Source of the DNA: Methylotenera mobilis 13
GTDB lineage: Bacteria; Pseudomonadota; Gammaproteobacteria; Burkholderiales; Methylophilaceae
Direction: 5' to 3'
DNA: 64,000 bases
NCBI RefSeq assembly: GCF_000384255.1
Contig: NZ_KB913035.1
Span: 434,001-498,000 of the forward strand
In this document: in pieces, positions 49,842 to 64,000 of the stretch
Layout: the number at the start of each line of letters is the position of its first letter
Numbering within the stretch: the first letter of the stretch is position 1
Notes under the pieces: model-generated
Database searches by the model: none
The model's input: only the letters and a program-made list of their open reading frames with translations
Told to the model about the DNA's origin: nothing
Translations under genes and position numbers: made by a program

Positions 49842-49871
49842 TTGACATATTAAATGAGAATGATTATCATT
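49842..49871 (+). promoter_or_regulatory. Promoter with Fur box, iron locus operon 1
   Basis: TTGACA (49842-49847), 17-bp spacer, TATCAT (49865-49870). A 19-bp dyad AATGAGAA-N3-TTATCATT (49853-49871) covers the -10 element, close to the Fur consensus. The predicted first gene starts at 49900. Confidence 0.82.
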
Positions 49872-49899
49872 TATTTAAATTCCTAGATTGGAGTACGTC

Positions 49900-50109
49900 A
49901 TGAGTAAGCAGTTAATTATTAGCCAAGCCAAACTGACAGGTAATGAAGATTGCAAAGTGCTTTATAACAAAGCAAAAGACATTGTTGAGCTTGAAATTGG
50001 AGACACTTCATTGCGGCTAGAGGTGCGTAATTTTTTCATGATGAATGAAATGATGCGCAAGGCAGTGGCAAGGTTGGTGATGCAAACTGAGTTGCATCAA
50101 GTGCAGTAA
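49900..50109 (+). CDS. Small protein of unknown function, iron locus (paralogue 1)
   Basis: 69 residues, cytosolic by composition, no signal or TM segment. The core VELEIGDTSLRLEVRNFFMM is followed by a helix ending AVARLVMQ. It resembles the 90-residue protein at 51482-51754 (V.ELE.G..SLR core and RL in the following helix), so the two are probably paralogues. GGAG lies 7 bases before ATG 49900; the frame's earlier ATG at 49888 is less likely. First gene after a Fur-like promoter. I do not recognise the family. Confidence 0.75.
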   Translation: MSKQLIISQAKLTGNEDCKVLYNKAKDIVELEIGDTSLRLEVRNFFMMNEMMRKAVARLVMQTELHQVQ

Positions 50110-50466: not shown

Positions 50467-51084
50467 ATGTCTCGATTTATTGGCCCACGATTAAAAGTGA
50501 TGCGTGCTTTAGGGGTGGATTTACCTGGATTGTCACGTAAAACCATTGAAGCACGCCCAACACCACCAGGCCAGCACGGTAATAAAGCATCGCGCAAGCG
50601 CCGCTCTGATTTTGGTGTGAAATTACAGGAAAAACAAAAAATTCGCTTCAATTACGGGTTGACCGAGACGCAGATGCGTAGATTGATACTGGATGCGCGT
50701 AAAGGTAAAGAGCCAACAGGCGAGCGTTTGTTGCAATTGCTGGAGCGCAGAATGGATAACGTAGTTTTCCGTGCTGGATTTGCACCTACGGTAATTGCTG
50801 CAAGGCAGTTAGTGAGCCATGGTCACCTCATGTTAAACGGTAAGCCAGCGAACATCCCGTCGATTAGATTGAATGTCGGTGATGAAATCGCTGTTAAGGC
50901 CAAAAGTAAGCATATCCCAATGGTGGTGGAAACTGTTAAGCAGCCGTCTTTAGAGCGACCAGAGTGGCTAAGTTGGGATGCGAGCACACAAGTGGTCAAG
51001 GTAGCACATTTGCCGGCGGTGAGCGATGTGCCCTTCCCTGTGGATGTGCAGTTGGTGGTTGAATATTATGCTAACCGCGTGTAG
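50467..51084 (+). CDS. rpsD: Second copy of 30S ribosomal protein S4, outside a ribosomal operon
   Basis: 205 residues with the S4 fold: N-terminal IGPRLKVMRALGVDLPG and PPGQHG, the EKQKIRFNYGLTE block, TGERLLQLLERRMDNVVFRAG, and the S4 RNA-binding domain ARQLVSHGHLMLNGKPANIPS. It has no cysteine. Its EKQK-RF-YGLTE block and VVEYYANR ending look more like cyanobacterial and plastid S4 than the usual betaproteobacterial S4, from memory. Standing in a Fur-controlled cluster, it is probably a conditional paralogue; the housekeeping copy should be in the rpsM-rpsK-rpsD-rpoA operon elsewhere. Confidence 0.9.
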   Translation: MSRFIGPRLKVMRALGVDLPGLSRKTIEARPTPPGQHGNKASRKRRSDFGVKLQEKQKIRFNYGLTETQMRRLILDARKGKEPTGERLLQLLERRMDNVVFRAGFAPTVIAARQLVSHGHLMLNGKPANIPSIRLNVGDEIAVKAKSKHIPMVVETVKQPSLERPEWLSWDASTQVVKVAHLPAVSDVPFPVDVQLVVEYYANRV

Positions 51085-51481: not shown

Positions 51482-51754
51482 ATGAAAATTAACAAAGCAT
51501 TGGAAAGCGTGACAAATAATCAAGCCTCGTGCTTGCGTGTTTTATTGTCTAAGAATGAAAGTGGCCAAATTATATTTTGTGAGAATTGCAATGTCGCTGA
51601 GTTGGAGCTGGGTGCAATTAGCTTGCGTATCGATGCTAGCACTTTGCATACATTAAAAACTTTATTAGCGGATGCTGATACTAGGCTGGCATTGTATCAA
51701 CAAGAAAAAGCTATTTATGCGCAACAGTCTGCTATTAACTGTAGCGTTCATTAG
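51482..51754 (+). CDS. Small protein of unknown function, iron locus (paralogue 2)
   Basis: 90 residues. The core VAELELGAISLRIDASTL resembles the 69-residue protein at 49900-50109. It also has a CENC cysteine pair near residue 37, absent from paralogue 1. AGGTG lies upstream of the ATG. It sits between the two hemP copies. Unknown family; the repeated occurrence inside one iron-responsive region suggests a role there. Confidence 0.72.
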   Translation: MKINKALESVTNNQASCLRVLLSKNESGQIIFCENCNVAELELGAISLRIDASTLHTLKTLLADADTRLALYQQEKAIYAQQSAINCSVH

Positions 51755-51807: not shown

Positions 51808-51838
51808 TTGACAAATCTAAATGATAACAATTATCATT
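51808..51838 (+). promoter_or_regulatory. Promoter with Fur box, hemP2-tonB-exbBD
   Basis: TTGACA (51808-51813), 18-bp spacer, TATCAT (51832-51837). A perfect 8-3-8 inverted repeat AATGATAA-CAA-TTATCATT (51820-51838) covers the -10 element. This is the best of the three Fur-like boxes in the region. Confidence 0.88.
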
Positions 51839-52119: not shown

Positions 52120-52953
52120 ATGATGACAAATTCAGAGCTTGCAGTGAATACTCACTTCTCTTCGGAGCCTTTTTCGAACAGGGTGGAAGCTGCGATTAAA
52201 TCTAACGTTAAACATCTGCCAATAAACACGCATATTGGTGCAACACGGGTGGACAAAAAAACAATCTCTTACAAAATGCTGGCAGCAGTGACCTTGATGC
52301 ACATGGTGGCTCTGGCGGGCGCGTTGAATGCTAAACCAGAAGCAGCGGCGATTAATAAGTTAGAAACGCCAATGATGGTGAGCTTGGTGAGCCAAGTGGC
52401 AGATGTCCCAAAAGAAATAGCTAAACCGCCAGTAGAGCAAGTCCAGCCTATTAAGAAACCTGTTGCTCAAAAACCAAAAGTCGTAGAGAAAAAACTGGTA
52501 GTGAATGAAGAGGCTGTCAGAAAAATAGAGCAAGTAGAGCCAGCAGTCGTAGAGAAAAACGAAACTGCTGTGGTTGCTGAAGCTTCCCCGGCGGAGCAGC
52601 AACCATTAGCAAAAGCAACAGAAGTGACGGAGAAAGTAGCCACTGAGCAAGTAGTGGCAGAGCCCGTAATTGAGCCGCCTAGATTTGGAGCAGCCTATTT
52701 AAATAACCCTGCACCTGCTTATCCCATGCAAGCAAGACGCATGGGTGAGCAAGGTAAAGTGCTGCTTAAAGTGTTAGTGTCTCAAGACGGCAAGGCTGAA
52801 ACAGTTAAAGTGGATACAAGTAGCGGCCATCATAAATTGGATCAGGCAGCGATTGAAGCTGTTAAAAAATGGAGCTTTGTACCGGCAAAGCGTAGTAACC
52901 AGCCAATTAGTGCTTATGTATTGGTACCTGTAAATTTCACATTGAATGGATAA
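52120..52953 (+). CDS. tonB: Energy transducer TonB
   Basis: Transmits proton-motive force from ExbBD to outer-membrane receptors. 277 residues with an unusually long cytosolic N-terminus (about 50 residues), one TM helix (about 52-70), a Pro/Lys/Glu/Val-rich periplasmic spacer (about 95-195), and the C-terminal domain PAPAYPMQARRMGEQGKVLL ... KKWSFVPA. AGGAGG lies before two adjacent ATG codons (52120 and 52123); the second has the better spacing. Confidence 0.95.
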   Translation: MMTNSELAVNTHFSSEPFSNRVEAAIKSNVKHLPINTHIGATRVDKKTISYKMLAAVTLMHMVALAGALNAKPEAAAINKLETPMMVSLVSQVADVPKEIAKPPVEQVQPIKKPVAQKPKVVEKKLVVNEEAVRKIEQVEPAVVEKNETAVVAEASPAEQQPLAKATEVTEKVATEQVVAEPVIEPPRFGAAYLNNPAPAYPMQARRMGEQGKVLLKVLVSQDGKAETVKVDTSSGHHKLDQAAIEAVKKWSFVPAKRSNQPISAYVLVPVNFTLNG

Positions 52954-53036: not shown

Positions 53037-53786
53037 ATGATGCAAAACGGGTATGAGTTTAATAGTTGGGAATTTATCACGGCGGGTGGGCCAGTTTCTA
53101 TGTTGGTTGCCTTGATCTTATTAGCAATGTCGGTGGCGAGTTGGTATTTAATCGTGACAAGAAGCGTTAGTGCATGGCGTATGCGTCGTGCTTATCAGAT
53201 ATTTTTACAGGCATTTTGGCAAGCGCCAAGTGTGGCCGTGGCAATTAAGCAAAGCCAGACTTATGCTAATACAGGGCTGGCTAGATTGGCAGAAAAAGCG
53301 ATACTGGCGGCTGAGCACCACAAGATGTGTGCAATAAAAGGATTTGAGATTGTTGCACAAGATGAGTTTGTAGCACGTGCCATGAACCGTAGCATTGCAG
53401 AAGAAAACGCAAATATGGAAGGCGGCTTAACTGTATTGGCTTCTGTGGGTAGCGTATCGCCATTTGTAGGTTTGTTTGGCACGGTGTGGGGGATTTATCA
53501 TGCACTTGCCAGCATCAGCTTAAGTGGTCAGGCGACTCTAGATAAAGTAGCTGGGCCAGTAGGTGAAGCTTTGATTATGACGGCATTAGGTTTGGCTGTG
53601 GCGATTCCTGCAGTGTTAGCTTATAACGCAATTGTACGTAGTAACCGTGCGTTATCTGTAGCACTTGAAAAATTTGGCTATGACTTGCATACCTTGATTA
53701 CAACTGGCGCGGTCATTGGTGCTAAACGAGCACATAAGCAGGGTGCTGCTGACCAAACGATGCATGTTGCAGGTGCCGTCGCATGA
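53037..53786 (+). CDS. exbB: ExbB, MotA/TolQ/ExbB proton channel family
   Basis: 249 residues, three TM helices (about 17-40, 128-150, 172-195). The conserved channel block LASVGSVSPFVGLFGTVWGI and GPVGEALIMTALGLAVAIPAV is intact. Partner of ExbD and TonB; the stop overlaps exbD by ATGA. Confidence 0.96.
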   Translation: MMQNGYEFNSWEFITAGGPVSMLVALILLAMSVASWYLIVTRSVSAWRMRRAYQIFLQAFWQAPSVAVAIKQSQTYANTGLARLAEKAILAAEHHKMCAIKGFEIVAQDEFVARAMNRSIAEENANMEGGLTVLASVGSVSPFVGLFGTVWGIYHALASISLSGQATLDKVAGPVGEALIMTALGLAVAIPAVLAYNAIVRSNRALSVALEKFGYDLHTLITTGAVIGAKRAHKQGAADQTMHVAGAVA

Positions 53787-54202
53787 TAGGGTCAGGAAGC
53801 AATGTAGGCGGTGCACCACATTCAGCACCTATGTCTGAGATTAACACTACCCCGCTAGTGGATGTGATGTTGGTGTTATTGGTAATTTTTATTATTACCG
53901 CACCATTACTGACGCATGCTGTAAAAATTGATTTGCCGCAAACAAGTAGCCAGCCTGTTCCTGAAAAGCCAGAAGTGATTTCTGTGTCTATTGATGCATC
54001 AGGCAAAATGTACTGGAATGATATGCCGCTGGTGCAAGGTGAGCTGAAATTGAAGTTAAAAGAAATTGCCCAGAAAAAACCACAGCCAGAATTAAATATA
54101 CGCGCTGATAAGGAAACCCGTTATCAGGTATTGGCTGAAGTGATGGCTGATGCACAAAATTCAGGTGTCAGTAAAATGGGTTTTGTAAGCGAAAGTAAGT
54201 AG
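53783..54202 (+). CDS. exbD: ExbD, biopolymer transport protein
   Basis: 139 residues. Short cytosolic N-terminus with SEINTTPLVDVMLVLLVIFI, where the Asp of VDVML is the proton-carrying residue in the single TM helix; the periplasmic C-terminal domain ends VLAEVMADAQNSGVSKMGFV. Start overlaps exbB. Confidence 0.96.
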   Translation: MIGSGSNVGGAPHSAPMSEINTTPLVDVMLVLLVIFIITAPLLTHAVKIDLPQTSSQPVPEKPEVISVSIDASGKMYWNDMPLVQGELKLKLKEIAQKKPQPELNIRADKETRYQVLAEVMADAQNSGVSKMGFVSESK

Positions 54203-54267: not shown

Positions 54268-54336
54268 AGCCAGCCAGTAAGTGTTGCTTGCAACCCCTTA
54301 GATAGCCAGCCAAATAGACAATCACAATCTAAGGGG
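54268..54336 (+). promoter_or_regulatory. AGCCAGCCA leader element with Shine-Dalgarno hairpin, receptor 1
   Basis: AGCCAGCCA occurs at 54268-54276 and again at 54304-54312. The second copy opens a 23-nt loop closed by a perfect 10-bp stem (54294-54303 with 54327-54336). The 3' arm ends in AAGGGG, the Shine-Dalgarno of the receptor ATG at 54343 (6-base spacing), so the closed stem should block ribosome binding. The same design precedes receptor 2. Confidence 0.75.
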
Positions 54337-54342
54337 AAGCTG

Positions 54343-56514
54343 ATGAGGAATCATCAAAACGTGCTTATGCTGGCAGTCATGGTTGCATTAGCATCTATGA
54401 CTGCGGTGGCAGAAGAGCAAACAGCACATTCAAAATTGGCAGATGAACTGCCTGAGGTTAATGTTCAGGCGGACGCGCCAAACGAAATCCGATATAAACC
54501 CAAACGTGCCTCAACAGCAACCAAGACTGATGCTGATATCATGGATATTCCGCAAGTAGTCAATGTGGTGCCACAGCAGGTACTGATTGATCAGCAGGCA
54601 CGATCACTTGATGATGCAATCAAAAATGTGAGCGGTATTACCATGGGTAATAACTTTGGACATACAGCAGACAGTTTGTTTGTTCGTGGTTTCGGCGGTA
54701 GTTTTTTTGGCGCAAGTTCTGGCATTTTGCGCGATGGTTTAAGATCACAAACTTCACGTAATTTCAGTATTACCACTGAGCGTGTAGAGGTTTTAAAAGG
54801 ACCTTCTTCATTGCTATATGGTATTCAAGATCCTGGTGGCGTGGTGAATGTGATTAGCAAAAAACCATTATCCGAACAAAGGACAGAAATCAATTTGTTA
54901 GCCAATAGTTTCGGCGGTGGTTCAGGTTGGGTTGATTTTTCAACACCACTGAACGATGAGGCTGGCTTTCGAATTCTGGCAGAGCATGAAGGGTCTGATT
55001 ATTGGCGTAACTTTGGGCAGACTAAGCGCACACTAGTCGCACCATCATTTGCTTGGGCTGGTGATAAGCTGCGGGTAAATGTGAACTATGAGTATCTGGA
55101 TTTTGAAGTGCCATTTGATCGCGGTACCGTGTTTCTTAACGGCAAGCCACTGGATGTGCCTGACTCACGGCGTTTTGGTGAACGATTTGAAGTCATGGAA
55201 GGCATTTCACAATATGCTCAAGGGAAAGTGGAGTACGATTTAACTCAGAAGGTGACGTTGCGCGGATCAGTGGCTTGGAGCAATGAAATCAATAGCGACA
55301 GGCGAGTAATGATTGCCTCACTGGCAGCGAATGGTGATGCAACCCGAACAGTGCAAGGTGTTGATGACCGTGAGCGTGATAATTTGTATGCATCATTTGA
55401 TGTGTTGAGCAAATTTGATATTGCCTCAACAAAGCATGAGGTGCTGGCTGGTTTTGACTTTGAAAAGTTAGATGCTAAAGACCCAAGTTTCTTTAGATTA
55501 AATACAGTGGGTGGCTTTAATGTATACAACCCTCAGTATGGTGTAATACAAGAGCCGACCACCATCACAGCTGCTAATACTTTTGCTTGGCAGAGGTCAG
55601 ATACTGATGTTGAGAATAAATCGGTATTTCTACAAGATACGATTCATTTTGGTGAGCAGTGGATAGCGCTCTTGGGTGGCCGTTATCAAGAGAGTGAGCA
55701 ATTTGCTTCACAACGTGATTTGCGCTTAGCTAATCCAGTTAAGGTCATTACTAATGACTCTAAGAGTGACGTTTTTCTTCCACGAGTTGGCCTAGTGTAT
55801 CGGCCACAGACATGGCTATCGCTCTTTACTAATTACAGTGAGTCATTCAAGCCTAATATCTCCGTAGACGGCGCGGCACAAGGCCCATTTGACCCAGAAG
55901 AGGGGGTTATTTATGAGGCTGGGGCTAAGCTTGATTTAGCGAATGGGGTGAGTGCTACTGCAGCAGTATTCAACATTATTAAAGAAAATGTTTTGGTGAC
56001 AGAAGGTGGCGTTAGTCGCACGGCTGGTGAAGTGCGCTCACGCGGGCTAGAAATCGATGTCGCAGGAAAACTATCAGATCATTGGGATGTAATTAGCACC
56101 TACGCTTACACCGACACCGAAACTTTAAAGGATGCTGCAACGGCGAATACGGTGGGTAAACGCCTTGTTAACTCGCCCAAGAATATGGCAAGCCTTTATC
56201 TGAACTATCGCACGGGAACCCCATCTGTTGGCGGACGGTGGACGTTAGGGGGCGGCGCACGCTATGTTGGTGAGCGTCCTGTCGATAGCGTCAATAGATA
56301 CTTTCTTGATGCTTATACAGTTGCTGATGCATACGCCGCTTATCAATGGCTGGCGGGCAGTCATCTTGCAACTGTGCGCCTGAATGTCAAAAACCTTTTT
56401 GATAAAACCTACTATCCAGGAGCCAATGGCGGTGTAATCAACAGCACAGGTGGTGGCAGCATCTTTTTAGGTGAGCCGCGTCAAGTACTACTACAGGCTG
56501 GTGTTGAGTTTTAA
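54343..56514 (+). CDS. TonB-dependent siderophore receptor
   Basis: 723-residue outer-membrane receptor. Signal peptide (about 1-23), a possible TonB box LPEVNVQA, plug domain with DIPQVVNVVPQQVLIDQQ, SLDDAIKNVSGI and VEVLKGPSSLLYGIQDPGG, then a 22-strand barrel ending in GVEF with terminal Phe. It is of the ferrichrome/hydroxamate-type receptor superfamily; the ligand cannot be fixed. Downstream partner: a DUF4198 protein. Expression probably controlled through the leader hairpin. Confidence 0.94.
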   Translation: MRNHQNVLMLAVMVALASMTAVAEEQTAHSKLADELPEVNVQADAPNEIRYKPKRASTATKTDADIMDIPQVVNVVPQQVLIDQQARSLDDAIKNVSGITMGNNFGHTADSLFVRGFGGSFFGASSGILRDGLRSQTSRNFSITTERVEVLKGPSSLLYGIQDPGGVVNVISKKPLSEQRTEINLLANSFGGGSGWVDFSTPLNDEAGFRILAEHEGSDYWRNFGQTKRTLVAPSFAWAGDKLRVNVNYEYLDFEVPFDRGTVFLNGKPLDVPDSRRFGERFEVMEGISQYAQGKVEYDLTQKVTLRGSVAWSNEINSDRRVMIASLAANGDATRTVQGVDDRERDNLYASFDVLSKFDIASTKHEVLAGFDFEKLDAKDPSFFRLNTVGGFNVYNPQYGVIQEPTTITAANTFAWQRSDTDVENKSVFLQDTIHFGEQWIALLGGRYQESEQFASQRDLRLANPVKVITNDSKSDVFLPRVGLVYRPQTWLSLFTNYSESFKPNISVDGAAQGPFDPEEGVIYEAGAKLDLANGVSATAAVFNIIKENVLVTEGGVSRTAGEVRSRGLEIDVAGKLSDHWDVISTYAYTDTETLKDAATANTVGKRLVNSPKNMASLYLNYRTGTPSVGGRWTLGGGARYVGERPVDSVNRYFLDAYTVADAYAAYQWLAGSHLATVRLNVKNLFDKTYYPGANGGVINSTGGGSIFLGEPRQVLLQAGVEF

Positions 56515-56577: not shown

Positions 56578-57243
56578 ATGAAAACAAAAAAATTATCATC
56601 TATTTTAGTTTTGGGGCTCTTTGCACTATTCCAGGCGACTATGGCTCAAGCGCATTTTATTTGGCTAGAGCAAGCAGATGGTCAAACAAAGTTATATTTT
56701 GGCGAATACGAAGGTGGCTTACGTGAAAAAACAGGAGGTAAGCTAGATACGATTGCTACCCCTGCGGCCACGACATTAGATAATAAAGTACTGCAAGTAG
56801 CCGCTAAACGTGCAGAAAATTATATTGCTATCGAGGGTGCAAATAATCAAGCTGTGCTTGCACATGAGTTGGGTATGAAAGTAAAAGATTTAACTAAATA
56901 TTATTATGGCATCGTTAAGCCTATGTACTACGCGCGACATGGAAATGGCAATGCAGAAGCGGCCTCTAGCCATGCTTTAGATATTCAACCGATAGGTAAT
57001 AATAAAGTGCGTGTTCACCTCAACGGTAAGCCCCTCGCAAAAGCGAAGCTAAAAGTGATGGCACCTAATCAATGGTTACAAGAATTAGATGCTGATGAGA
57101 ATGGTGAAGCTACCTACAATATGCCGTGGGCAGGGCTATATGTGTTAGAGGCTATTTATTTGGAAGCTAAGCCAGGCGAGTTTCAGGGGGATAAATATGA
57201 AAATATCCGCCATGTGAGTACATTATCTGTGATGAAGAAATAA
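56578..57243 (+). CDS. DUF4198 family periplasmic protein
   Basis: 221 residues: signal peptide (about 1-25, ending AQA), then HFIWLEQADGQTKLYFGEYE, the characteristic DUF4198 opening with a possible metal-binding His at the mature N-terminus, and a C-terminal Ig-like domain (GKPLAKAKLKVMAPNQWLQE). DUF4198 proteins are frequent companions of TonB-dependent receptors for metals. It follows receptor 1 by 63 bp with GG-containing AGGAAA upstream. Likely in the same transcript. Confidence 0.87.
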   Translation: MKTKKLSSILVLGLFALFQATMAQAHFIWLEQADGQTKLYFGEYEGGLREKTGGKLDTIATPAATTLDNKVLQVAAKRAENYIAIEGANNQAVLAHELGMKVKDLTKYYYGIVKPMYYARHGNGNAEAASSHALDIQPIGNNKVRVHLNGKPLAKAKLKVMAPNQWLQELDADENGEATYNMPWAGLYVLEAIYLEAKPGEFQGDKYENIRHVSTLSVMKK

Positions 57244-63174: not shown

Positions 63175-63204
63175 TTGCAATTGTAAATGAGAACAGTTAT
63201 CATT
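63175..63204 (+). promoter_or_regulatory. Promoter with Fur box, siderophore receptor 2
   Basis: TTGCAA (63175-63180), 17-bp spacer, TATCAT (63198-63203). The dyad AATGAGAA-CAG-TTATCATT (63186-63204) covers the -10 element. Same design as 49842 and 51808. The leader to ATG 63526 would be about 315 nt. Confidence 0.82.
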
Positions 63205-63276
63205 AGCAAATGAATTGGGGTTGAATGCAAGGACTTTTACACAGTTTTACATTCAGTTCGTGCATTCCTTATTTTT

Positions 63277-63328
63277 AGCCAGTCAACGGTCAGTTCTCTA
63301 GCCAACCACTGAGTTATTTTATAGGAGA
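63277..63328 (+). promoter_or_regulatory. Degenerate AGCCAGCCA element upstream of a five-codon ORF
   Basis: AGCCAGTCA (63277-63285) and AGCCAACCA (63300-63308) align with the receptor 2 element, sharing the following CAACGGT. A weaker 5-bp stem (63295-63299 with 63324-63328, one G-U) would hold the SD AGGAGA in its 3' arm around a 24-nt loop. Six bases later TTG 63335 opens a five-codon ORF, MSIQA, ending at 63352. A hairpin follows at 63366-63392. Confidence 0.55.
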
Positions 63329-63365
63329 TTTATCTTGAGTATTCAGGCTTAAGTTGACGGCAATT

Positions 63366-63392
63366 CGAAAGGCAGCAATAGGATGCCTTTCG
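63366..63392 (+). repeat. 9-bp hairpin in the receptor 2 leader
   Basis: Perfect inverted repeat CGAAAGGCA/TGCCTTTCG (63366-63374 and 63384-63392) with a 9-base loop, between the five-codon ORF and the second leader element. Tail GCAAATCTGTAGTTTT lacks an immediate T-run, so termination there is uncertain. Confidence 0.6.
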
Positions 63393-63465
63393 GCAAATCT
63401 GTAGTTTTAAGTATTACAAAATAAGTAAGTGAAACATGTAAAAAAATAATTTAATAAGCACGTCA

Positions 63466-63525
63466 AGCCAGCCAACGGTATTTTCCTCTAGCCAGCCAGA
63501 TATTTTGAATCAAGAGGAAAGTACC
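63466..63525 (+). promoter_or_regulatory. AGCCAGCCA leader element with Shine-Dalgarno hairpin, receptor 2
   Basis: AGCCAGCCA at 63466-63474 and 63490-63498. The second copy opens a 23-nt loop on a 13-bp stem (63477-63489 with 63513-63525, one G-U) that contains the SD AGAGGAAA and ends at the base before ATG 63526. Same copy order, same loop length and same SD occlusion as at receptor 1, although the stem sequences differ. Confidence 0.78.
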
Positions 63526-64000
63526 ATGAGTTATATTCGTAGTCGTAAACACAACCCCGCCCGTATCGCTGCGCTAGTTGCTGCAACATTGTCCTTTGGT
63601 GCAAACGCTGCTAGCGAAACTAATGAGGCCGCAGATCAACTTCCAGAAGTGAATGTGACGGCAACGCCAGAGGTGCCTTTTAAGGCTAATACGTCAGCTA
63701 GCTCTAAATTTACAAAGCCGTTAATCGATACCACACAAACTGTGCAAGTGATTAAAAAAGAAGTGCTACGTGAGCAAGGCGTCATTTCATTAACAGATGC
63801 TTTACGTAATACGCCAGGTATCACCATGCAATTGGGTGAGAATGGCAACACTTCAGCAGGTGATACTTTCTCGATGCGCGGTTTTGCAACACAAAACTCA
63901 TTGTTTGTAGATGGCATTCGTGACCTAGGTGCAGTAACGCGTGACGTGTATAACTTAGAGCAGATTGAGGTGGTGAAAGGCCCAGCAGGTGCAGATATCG
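63526..64000 (+). CDS. TonB-dependent siderophore receptor, Fiu/PiuA-like (3' end outside window)
   Basis: Open to the window edge; 158 codons visible. Signal peptide (about 1-27, ending ANA), possible TonB box LPEVNVTA, then a plug domain strongly like E. coli Fiu: SSKFTKPLIDTTQTVQVI, LTDALRNTPGI, LGENGNTSAGD, FVDGIRDLGAVTRDVYNLEQ and VVKGPAGAD. Fiu-type receptors import catecholate iron complexes. Under a Fur-like promoter and a structured leader. Confidence 0.92.
   Translation, partial: MSYIRSRKHNPARIAALVAATLSFGANAASETNEAADQLPEVNVTATPEVPFKANTSASSKFTKPLIDTTQTVQVIKKEVLREQGVISLTDALRNTPGITMQLGENGNTSAGDTFSMRGFATQNSLFVDGIRDLGAVTRDVYNLEQIEVVKGPAGADI

Follow-up and report, generated by a model that had tools for sequence, protein, structure and literature searches.

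The stretch of DNA examined here, referred to as the window, comprises 64,000 nucleotides of the Methylotenera mobilis 13 genome (contig NZ_KB913035.1, positions 434,001 to 498,000) and contains two TonB-dependent receptor genes, each preceded by a leader with the same order of parts (Table 1). In leader B, which lies before the Fiu-family gene, one copy of the nine-letter motif AGCCAGCCA is followed after a two-letter gap by a 13-nucleotide 5′ arm, a second copy at the head of a loop, and a 3′ arm that carries the Shine-Dalgarno (SD) sequence and adjoins the ATG at 63526; the stem has 13 base pairs, one of them G-U. We refer to this pairing of the spacer with the stretch from copy 2 to the start codon as P2, and to folding of the spacer between the copies on itself as P1. 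The original prediction had described the stem, the 23-nt loop headed by the motif, the second copy upstream and the SD-containing arm that ends at the start codon, and all of this holds to the base; it had also called the downstream gene a Fiu-like receptor, and the encoded protein (gene complete in L329:527-2818) scores 777.9 bits against the NCBIfam Fiu equivalog, for which the cut-off is 686. Leader B (63466-63528) folds with a z score of -4.36, which 1 of 200 shuffles equalled, and its positions -13 to -5 have a predicted mean pairing probability of 0.99. Self-pairing of its spacer yields two pairs only (-0.9 kcal/mol).

Leader A (54268-54342) repeats this arrangement with a 10-bp stem whose sequence, as previously claimed, is unlike that of stem B, and its fold has a z score of -2.73 (2 of 200 shuffles were equally good). 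Receptor A matches the Pfam Plug and beta-barrel models. Two hemP genes, whose products both end in KLILTK, precede tonB-exbB-exbD and receptor A, so that about 2.2 kb separate hemP from leader A. hemP copy 2 presumably heads a single transcript running hemP-tonB-exbB-exbD-[HPRE-A]-receptor A.

Table 1. Features of the two leaders and their surroundings in the window
Feature	Position	Strand	Sequence or basis
hemP copy 1, 73 aa	51253-51474	+	PF10636, 63.0 bits (cut-off 25)
Fur-box-like site before hemP copy 2	51822-51836	+	TGATAACAATTATCA, 13/14
hemP copy 2, 56 aa	51901-52071	+	PF10636, 61.1 bits
tonB	52120-52953	+	PF03544
exbB	53037-53786	+	PF01618
exbD	53783-54202	+	named from sequence and place
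HPRE-A copy 1	54268-54276	+	AGCCAGCCA
HPRE-A anti-SD arm (5′ arm of P2)	54294-54303	+	CCCCTTAGAT
HPRE-A copy 2, heading a 23-nt P2 loop	54304-54312	+	AGCCAGCCA
HPRE-A 3′ arm of P2, with SD	54327-54336	+	ATCTAAGGGG
TonB-dependent siderophore receptor A	54343-56514	+	TIGR01783, 326.5 bits (cut-off 223.5)
DUF4198 protein, directly 3′ of receptor A	56578-57243	+	PF10670, 39 bits (cut-off 34)
Fur-box-like site upstream of relic and HPRE-B	63188-63202	+	TGAGAACAGTTATCA, 11/14
Relic HPRE, former leader of DUF4198 gene	63277-63308	+	AGCCAGTCA-14-AGCCAACCA, alignment to G114
HPRE-B copy 1	63466-63474	+	AGCCAGCCA, read from sequence
HPRE-B anti-SD arm (5′ arm of P2), in spacer	63477-63489	+	GGTATTTTCCTCT
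HPRE-B copy 2, head of P2 loop	63490-63498	+	AGCCAGCCA
HPRE-B P2 loop, 23 nt	63490-63512	+	
HPRE-B 3′ arm of P2, with SD AGAGGAAAG	63513-63525	+	AGAGGAAAGTACC
Catecholate siderophore receptor B, Fiu family	63526-64000, runs past window edge	+	

The best identification of both leaders is the HmuP-responsive element (HPRE), described as a direct repeat in the 5′ UTR that is tied to HemP/HmuP (Amarelle 2019, via the accessible text of PMC9131926 and PMC9241770). According to the accessible parts of PMC9131926, the HPRE of C. violaceum chuR is CCCGCAAGCCAGCCGACAGCCAGCCAGCG, located 26 nt before the ATG, and ChuP, a member of the HemP family, binds heme and is needed for full expression of chuR and of vbuA, which encodes a siderophore receptor. 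A post-transcriptional effect is favoured there, and no binding of ChuP to the tested DNA probes was found. The window leaders likewise carry a AGCCAGCC-type direct repeat 5′ of a TonB-dependent receptor start (the comparison with chuR was made by eye), a short way from it, as do the HPREs of Ensifer meliloti shmR and C. violaceum chuR and vbuA; the published elements, in what is available of these reports, are proposed to act in the 5′ UTR, with hemP/hmuP in the genome and often nearby. Here HemP/HmuP is encoded by two PF10636 genes within one cluster, both products scoring above the cut-off (PDB relatives in the family are 2JRA, 4YNX YdiE and 2LOJ). Heme receptor genes are not what follows: receptors A and B exceed the cut-offs of siderophore families, which by these models makes both something other than heme receptors, and since the vbuA HPRE also precedes a siderophore receptor gene we do not treat the heme-receptor position as defining. 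The spacing differs too, in that the copies stand 10-40 nt apart in our curated set, with a spacer that tends to fold on itself and pairs with the SD region, whereas the accessible description of the chuR HPRE gives a spacer of 3 nt, in which P1 could not form. An Rfam covariance-model scan of the leaders returned no family above the gathering cut-off (one sub-threshold microRNA match lay elsewhere in L182), and the matches listed by a literature text search for the letters AGCCAGCCA all looked unrelated.

The window holds four copies of the motif where 0.66 would be expected, and the whole genome 57, compared with 5 for the reversed pattern. Single copies were ruled out as a marker, given this number and the fact that open frames of at least 100 codons contain 50 of the 53 copies found elsewhere in the genome; it is therefore the closely spaced pair that constitutes the signal, and the genome has three such pairs, namely leaders A and B and one judged coding. 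These numbers also bear on the idea that a Fur-repressed small RNA containing UGGCUGGCU pairs with both copies and thereby opens P2. Two identical 9-mers around a regulated stem would make a fair sRNA target, and 3 of the 53 copies outside the window (L023, L036 and L057) fall outside such open frames; against this, no terminator-like end is visible at L057, which leaves the perfect-complement candidate there unconvincing, and nothing but one tRNA exceeded an Rfam cut-off in 16 stretches that surround copies of the motif in the genome, those at L057 and L023 being two of them. We regard an sRNA as quite unlikely; these observations bear on a perfect complement more than on an imperfect seed.

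Among family (Methylophilaceae) genomes, AGCCAGCCA-N10-40-AGCCAGCCA is present in 40 of 187, compared with 1 for the reversed pattern. In a sample of 399 genomes from the order, 17 matched a stricter pair pattern and no reversed match was seen; in a sample of 369 from the class, 9 matched it and 1 the reversed form. The pair is thus neither absent upstream of receptor genes in relatives nor equalled by its controls, the two outcomes that the original prediction had named as counting against a functional RNA. When the two middle letters are left free (AGCCNNCCA, a search that also required T before copy 2), 52 of 187 family genomes match, against 6 for the reversed pattern, and of the 16 relaxed-only matches whose DNA was examined one precedes a receptor-like open reading frame (ORF), suggesting a motif that is rigid, though not absolutely. 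The second copy in that leader (L271) is AGCCCGCCA instead of AGCCAGCCA, a natural motif variant in a genome (G107) that has hemP. A short-spacer pattern was found in 6 of 399 order genomes (reversed control 1) versus 17 of 399 for the long spacer, the two patterns also differing in their flanking letters.

Curation of these matches removed seven family genomes in which they were judged coding-only (G109, G147, G043, G054, G066, G073 and G074), one place each in G000, G117, G145, G146, G172 and G173 (the last judged without its DNA), and G148:C11:33796-33900, a long tandem AGCC array that matches the pattern without being a leader. Beyond the family, a contig-wide scan gave at least 115 stretches with the pattern, from which no frequencies can be derived, and the pair occurs in other Beta- and Gammaproteobacteria as well. 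The element and hemP stand together in eight named stretches from Methyloglobulus, Methylobacter, Methylomonas and Ectothiorhodospira (lineage checked for Methylobacter). The accessible text of PMC9241770, citing Amarelle 2019, names Alpha- and Betaproteobacteria as carriers of the HPRE and states that Gammaproteobacteria lack it, a limit that the wider set oversteps; the window appears to be betaproteobacterial, so its own membership is untouched. Thirty-three viral stretches among the matches listed were excluded from the leader counts. One contig labelled Helicobacteraceae (L141) combines hemP, the element and a receptor-looking ORF of 758 aa, reflecting either horizontal transfer or a binning error.

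The genes behind the element are predominantly receptors. There were 124 downstream ORFs, and with L063, L068, L073 and L074 left out of the alignments, 37 remained from the family and 83 from the wider scan. The former comprise 29 receptors (Plug), 5 azurins (Copper-bind) and 1 DUF4198 protein. The latter, which come from the matches listed and include some spurious ORFs, comprise 32 receptors (Plug), four proteins with Sigma70 region 4, three with TonB_C, and individual matches to Iron_transport, IucA/IucC, Cu-oxidase, OprB and further models. The ORF in L124 is a FecI-like sigma factor, and that in L292 is a bacterioferritin above the cut-off. Seven further receptors, picked by hand, have a siderophore-type model as their best match, and the wider set includes at least one ORF with a match to the heme-receptor model (3.5e-68). 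The elements described here differ from the published HPREs in the siderophore type of the two window receptors and in standing, in relatives, also before azurin, FecI-like sigma factor, TonB and bacterioferritin genes. The bacterioferritin gene (L292:1000-1461) adjoins what by eye is a ferric-reductase-like frame; here a gene for storing iron follows an element that supposedly serves iron uptake.

The element is closely associated with hemP. hemP is present in each of the 33 family genomes credited with a leader element (38 of 40 if the seven coding-only genomes are kept), compared with 68 of 187 overall, and outside the family hemP is present in 20 of 22 genomes with the element versus 22 of 58 without it (Fisher p 1.4e-5). 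Among the matches listed, the fetched stretch includes hemP for 39 of the 73 leader loci from other families and for 0 of the 33 viral ones; for loci with the pattern in which no start codon was found the count is 8 of 34. The association is not strict in either direction. Two element-bearing genomes, G647 and G774 (L300 and L301), have no hemP at the PF10636 cut-off, which may mean a divergent hemP, an assembly gap or another reader of the element, and of the 68 hemP-bearing family genomes 35 lack a leader element by reading and 30 lack any strict match. Part of the co-occurrence reflects linkage: the distance to hemP is at most 14.3 kb for 38 of 40 family elements, the remaining two being on another contig.

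Position and orientation bear directly on whether the repeats work as DNA or as RNA. In B. japonicum and B. multivorans, HemP/HmuP is credited with activating transcription (accessible text of PMC9131926 and PMC11442138), and HemP proteins of other bacteria have been reported as DNA-acting or repressing (accessible text of PMC9131926 and PMC9241770). The repeats could be a DNA operator through which HemP, by itself or jointly with Fur/Irr, switches transcription on, the folding being incidental. We consider this unlikely. Over 181 motif rows, in a test that took in 116 sense and 33 antisense ORFs, receptor-like ORFs number 66 in the sense and 0 in the antisense orientation; 37 of the 181 rows begin within 150 nt 3′ of a hemP stop codon on the same strand and so probably lie inside a transcript. 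Position, orientation and these 37 rows speak for a place in a transcribed 5′ leader. The copy spacing varies across the 10-40 nt range, covariation of P1 and P2 exceeds that of swapped controls (see below), and ChuP did not bind the DNA it was tested on in the accessible account of PMC9131926. A leader RNA, on the other hand, would explain why the spacing of the repeats is variable.

Beyond what the original prediction described, many relatives have a second, alternative hairpin between the copies. As a control, spacer halves were swapped between leaders for P1 (300 permutations), and leaders were mixed in the same spirit for P2 (200 permutations). Over 114 non-identical leaders, a set that keeps some spurious rows and whose permutations retain related leaders, P1 sums to -445.6 kcal/mol against -204.0 +/- 17.8 for swapped halves, and P2 to -1344.9 kcal/mol against -1032.1 +/- 32.1. 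Two stricter subsets behave similarly. In 43 leaders with hemP in the stretch, the sums (kcal/mol) are -216.4 against -109.8 +/- 12.7 for P1 and -538.3 against -440.8 +/- 18.3 for P2, where the reversed spacer reaches -465.4 and the P2 excess is accordingly moderate. In 38 family leaders (five loci left out), they are -86.7 against -42.9 +/- 7.5 for P1 and -411.9 against -287.0 +/- 15.0 for P2, with -271.4 for the reversed spacer. A first P2 cut-off of -6 kcal/mol proved uninformative: 99 of 114 leaders pass it, 90 of them with P2 covering -14 to -5, but weak P2 pairings are cheap in swapped controls too (means 87.8 and 74.5). At -10 kcal/mol, 64 of 114 leaders pass compared with a swapped mean of 39.1, and 61 reach -14 to -5 compared with a mean of 33.3 and a maximum of 46 (100 permutations each). 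Of the 92 leaders that have both, 88 show a P2 that draws on the P1 3′ arm, meaning that the two pairings compete. Several leaders have a very short P1 or none, and copy 2 is predicted to be partly paired (mean 0.50).

The stem covariation is real, although its source is not the one first proposed. Leaders A and B had been taken as a case of compensatory evolution, but they are non-orthologous leaders with different stems and cannot alone show it; the idea stands instead on orthologues and on the 114-leader mix-and-match comparisons. Between Fiu-type orthologues, two pairs change on both sides, as judged by eye: counting from the start codon, pair four reads A-U in three leaders and U-A in two, and the inner C-G pair is U-A in G070. 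The third pair is broken in each of two leaders, G079 and G172 (also by eye). In seven such orthologues the mean pairing probability of the SD region is 0.76-0.99. The supposed conservation of loop length has to be given up, since the loop measures 21-24 nt in these seven and 17 nt in the A-type relative L094, so 23 nt is not fixed and the equal loops of A and B are a coincidence. What several receptor genes do have in common, as had been proposed, is the RNA design itself, in which the repeat is invariant, the stem varies and the ribosome-binding site is sequestered.

A hidden ribosome-binding site is also a feature of other regulatory leaders. Translational ON riboswitches use anti-SD pairing, with two competing pairings of which one hides the ribosome-binding site. 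The window leaders show the same competition, but their conserved part is a direct repeat linked to a protein and not a known ligand pocket. The copies and P1 might nevertheless bind heme, iron or a siderophore directly, with no protein involved, and the 18 rigid letters, the helix and the competing anti-SD pairing do resemble a small riboswitch; this would leave unexplained the tie to hemP, which follows from the HPRE reading, and it sits poorly with the leaders in which P1 is minimal or missing, making it very improbable in our estimate. Leaders of Shigella heme-uptake genes are said to be RNA thermometers with a hidden SD. They resemble the window leaders in being iron/heme uptake leaders of this kind, while the AGCCAGCCA copies and the hemP tie belong to the window leaders and go unmentioned in the opening of the abstract of PMC3660397. 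The strong predicted occlusion of the SD region by P2 in leader B would fit a static or temperature-dependent hairpin that only sets a low basal rate of translation. Such a hairpin would need neither two rigid copies outside the stem nor hemP, and we hold it to be highly improbable.

The action of HemP/HmuP is disputed, with DNA activator, post-transcriptional activator and repressor roles all represented in the accessible parts of PMC9131926, PMC9241770 and PMC11442138. For the present element we think it likely that it is an HPRE whose spacer forms either P1 or P2 and that HemP frees the ribosome-binding site. When iron is scarce, Fur would allow transcription of hemP-tonB-exbBD-receptor and of fiu, and by default the ribosome-binding site of these leaders would be hidden by P2. 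HemP would then bind the two single-stranded AGCCAGCCA copies and hold the spacer in or near the P1 arrangement, upon which P2 would open and the receptor would be translated; heme on HemP could tune the switch. This proposal draws on the motif, the two competing pairings, the sense orientation, the location in many relatives behind hemP and ahead of the gene that follows it, and the co-occurrence with hemP, all of which were computed. Contact of HemP with the copies, an activating sign and action on translation are what we infer, the sign being taken over from the C. violaceum work. With a P1 of two pairs only, the switch in leader B would be between P2 and an open state and not between P2 and P1, and the alternative to P2 there is probably an open, HemP-held leader.

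Two rigid copies with covarying, competing pairings offer a concrete and testable model of HemP acting at the level of translation, and they make HemP targets findable by sequence. The HemP regulon would probably widen from heme uptake to iron starvation at large. A more general formulation, in which HemP is an RNA-binding activator of a two-state translational switch (P1 on, P2 off) that defines a general iron-starvation regulon of Beta- and Gammaproteobacteria beyond heme, is possible, and we advance it tentatively. Should it be true, that regulon would take in siderophore receptors, TonB, FecI-like sigma factors, azurin and even bacterioferritin, azurin being a copper protein that would stand in for one containing iron.

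The element itself has been described before, though it is little studied, and the combination of a P1 spacer hairpin with P2 anti-SD pairing is apparently new. Amarelle 2019 may reportedly contain a predicted RNA structure already. In literature search results and in passages of PMC9131926, PMC9241770 and PMC11442138, we did not find the P1/P2 switch, the azurin, FecI-like sigma factor and bacterioferritin targets, or the occurrence in Methylobacter, Methyloglobulus, Methylomonas and Ectothiorhodospira.

The window also holds what seems to be a third, decayed element. In the relative G114 an intact pair leads a DUF4198 gene (L330:4584-5270, minus strand), which in turn precedes fiu. In the window most of this gene is missing, and the upstream stretch with its Fur-like box is kept. 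Both copies of the relic are altered relative to G114, but leader B, which lies 189 bases further on, retains all 18 repeat letters; the relic has a fold z score of 0.04, which is no fold beyond chance. Decay of this sort is what loss of selection would look like, in a single case known from alignment. The Fur-like box is weak evidence by itself, as sites of the TGAGAACAGTTATCA grade (11/14) number 11 in the window against 4-9 in ten shuffles. Remains of the DUF4198 gene occupy 63180-63440, with fiu on one side and on the other a cluster that by eye resembles MacAB-TolC.

Some further genes near hemP deserve mention. Just 5′ of hemP copy 1 is a gene (50467-51084) whose sequence suggests a ribosomal protein S4-like product, with a Fur-like box (13/14) at 49855. 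Small proteins of about 70-100 aa that share a similar ELEIG-like stretch are encoded adjoining hemP in the window (51482-51754 and 49888-50109) and beside hemP in L126, L128, L147, L149, L164, L206 and L212, with one of them being DUF6686 by Pfam. In Methylobacter relatives, the gene for the ELEIG-like small protein stands behind a AGCCAGCCA-hairpin-AGCCAGCCA leader of its own.
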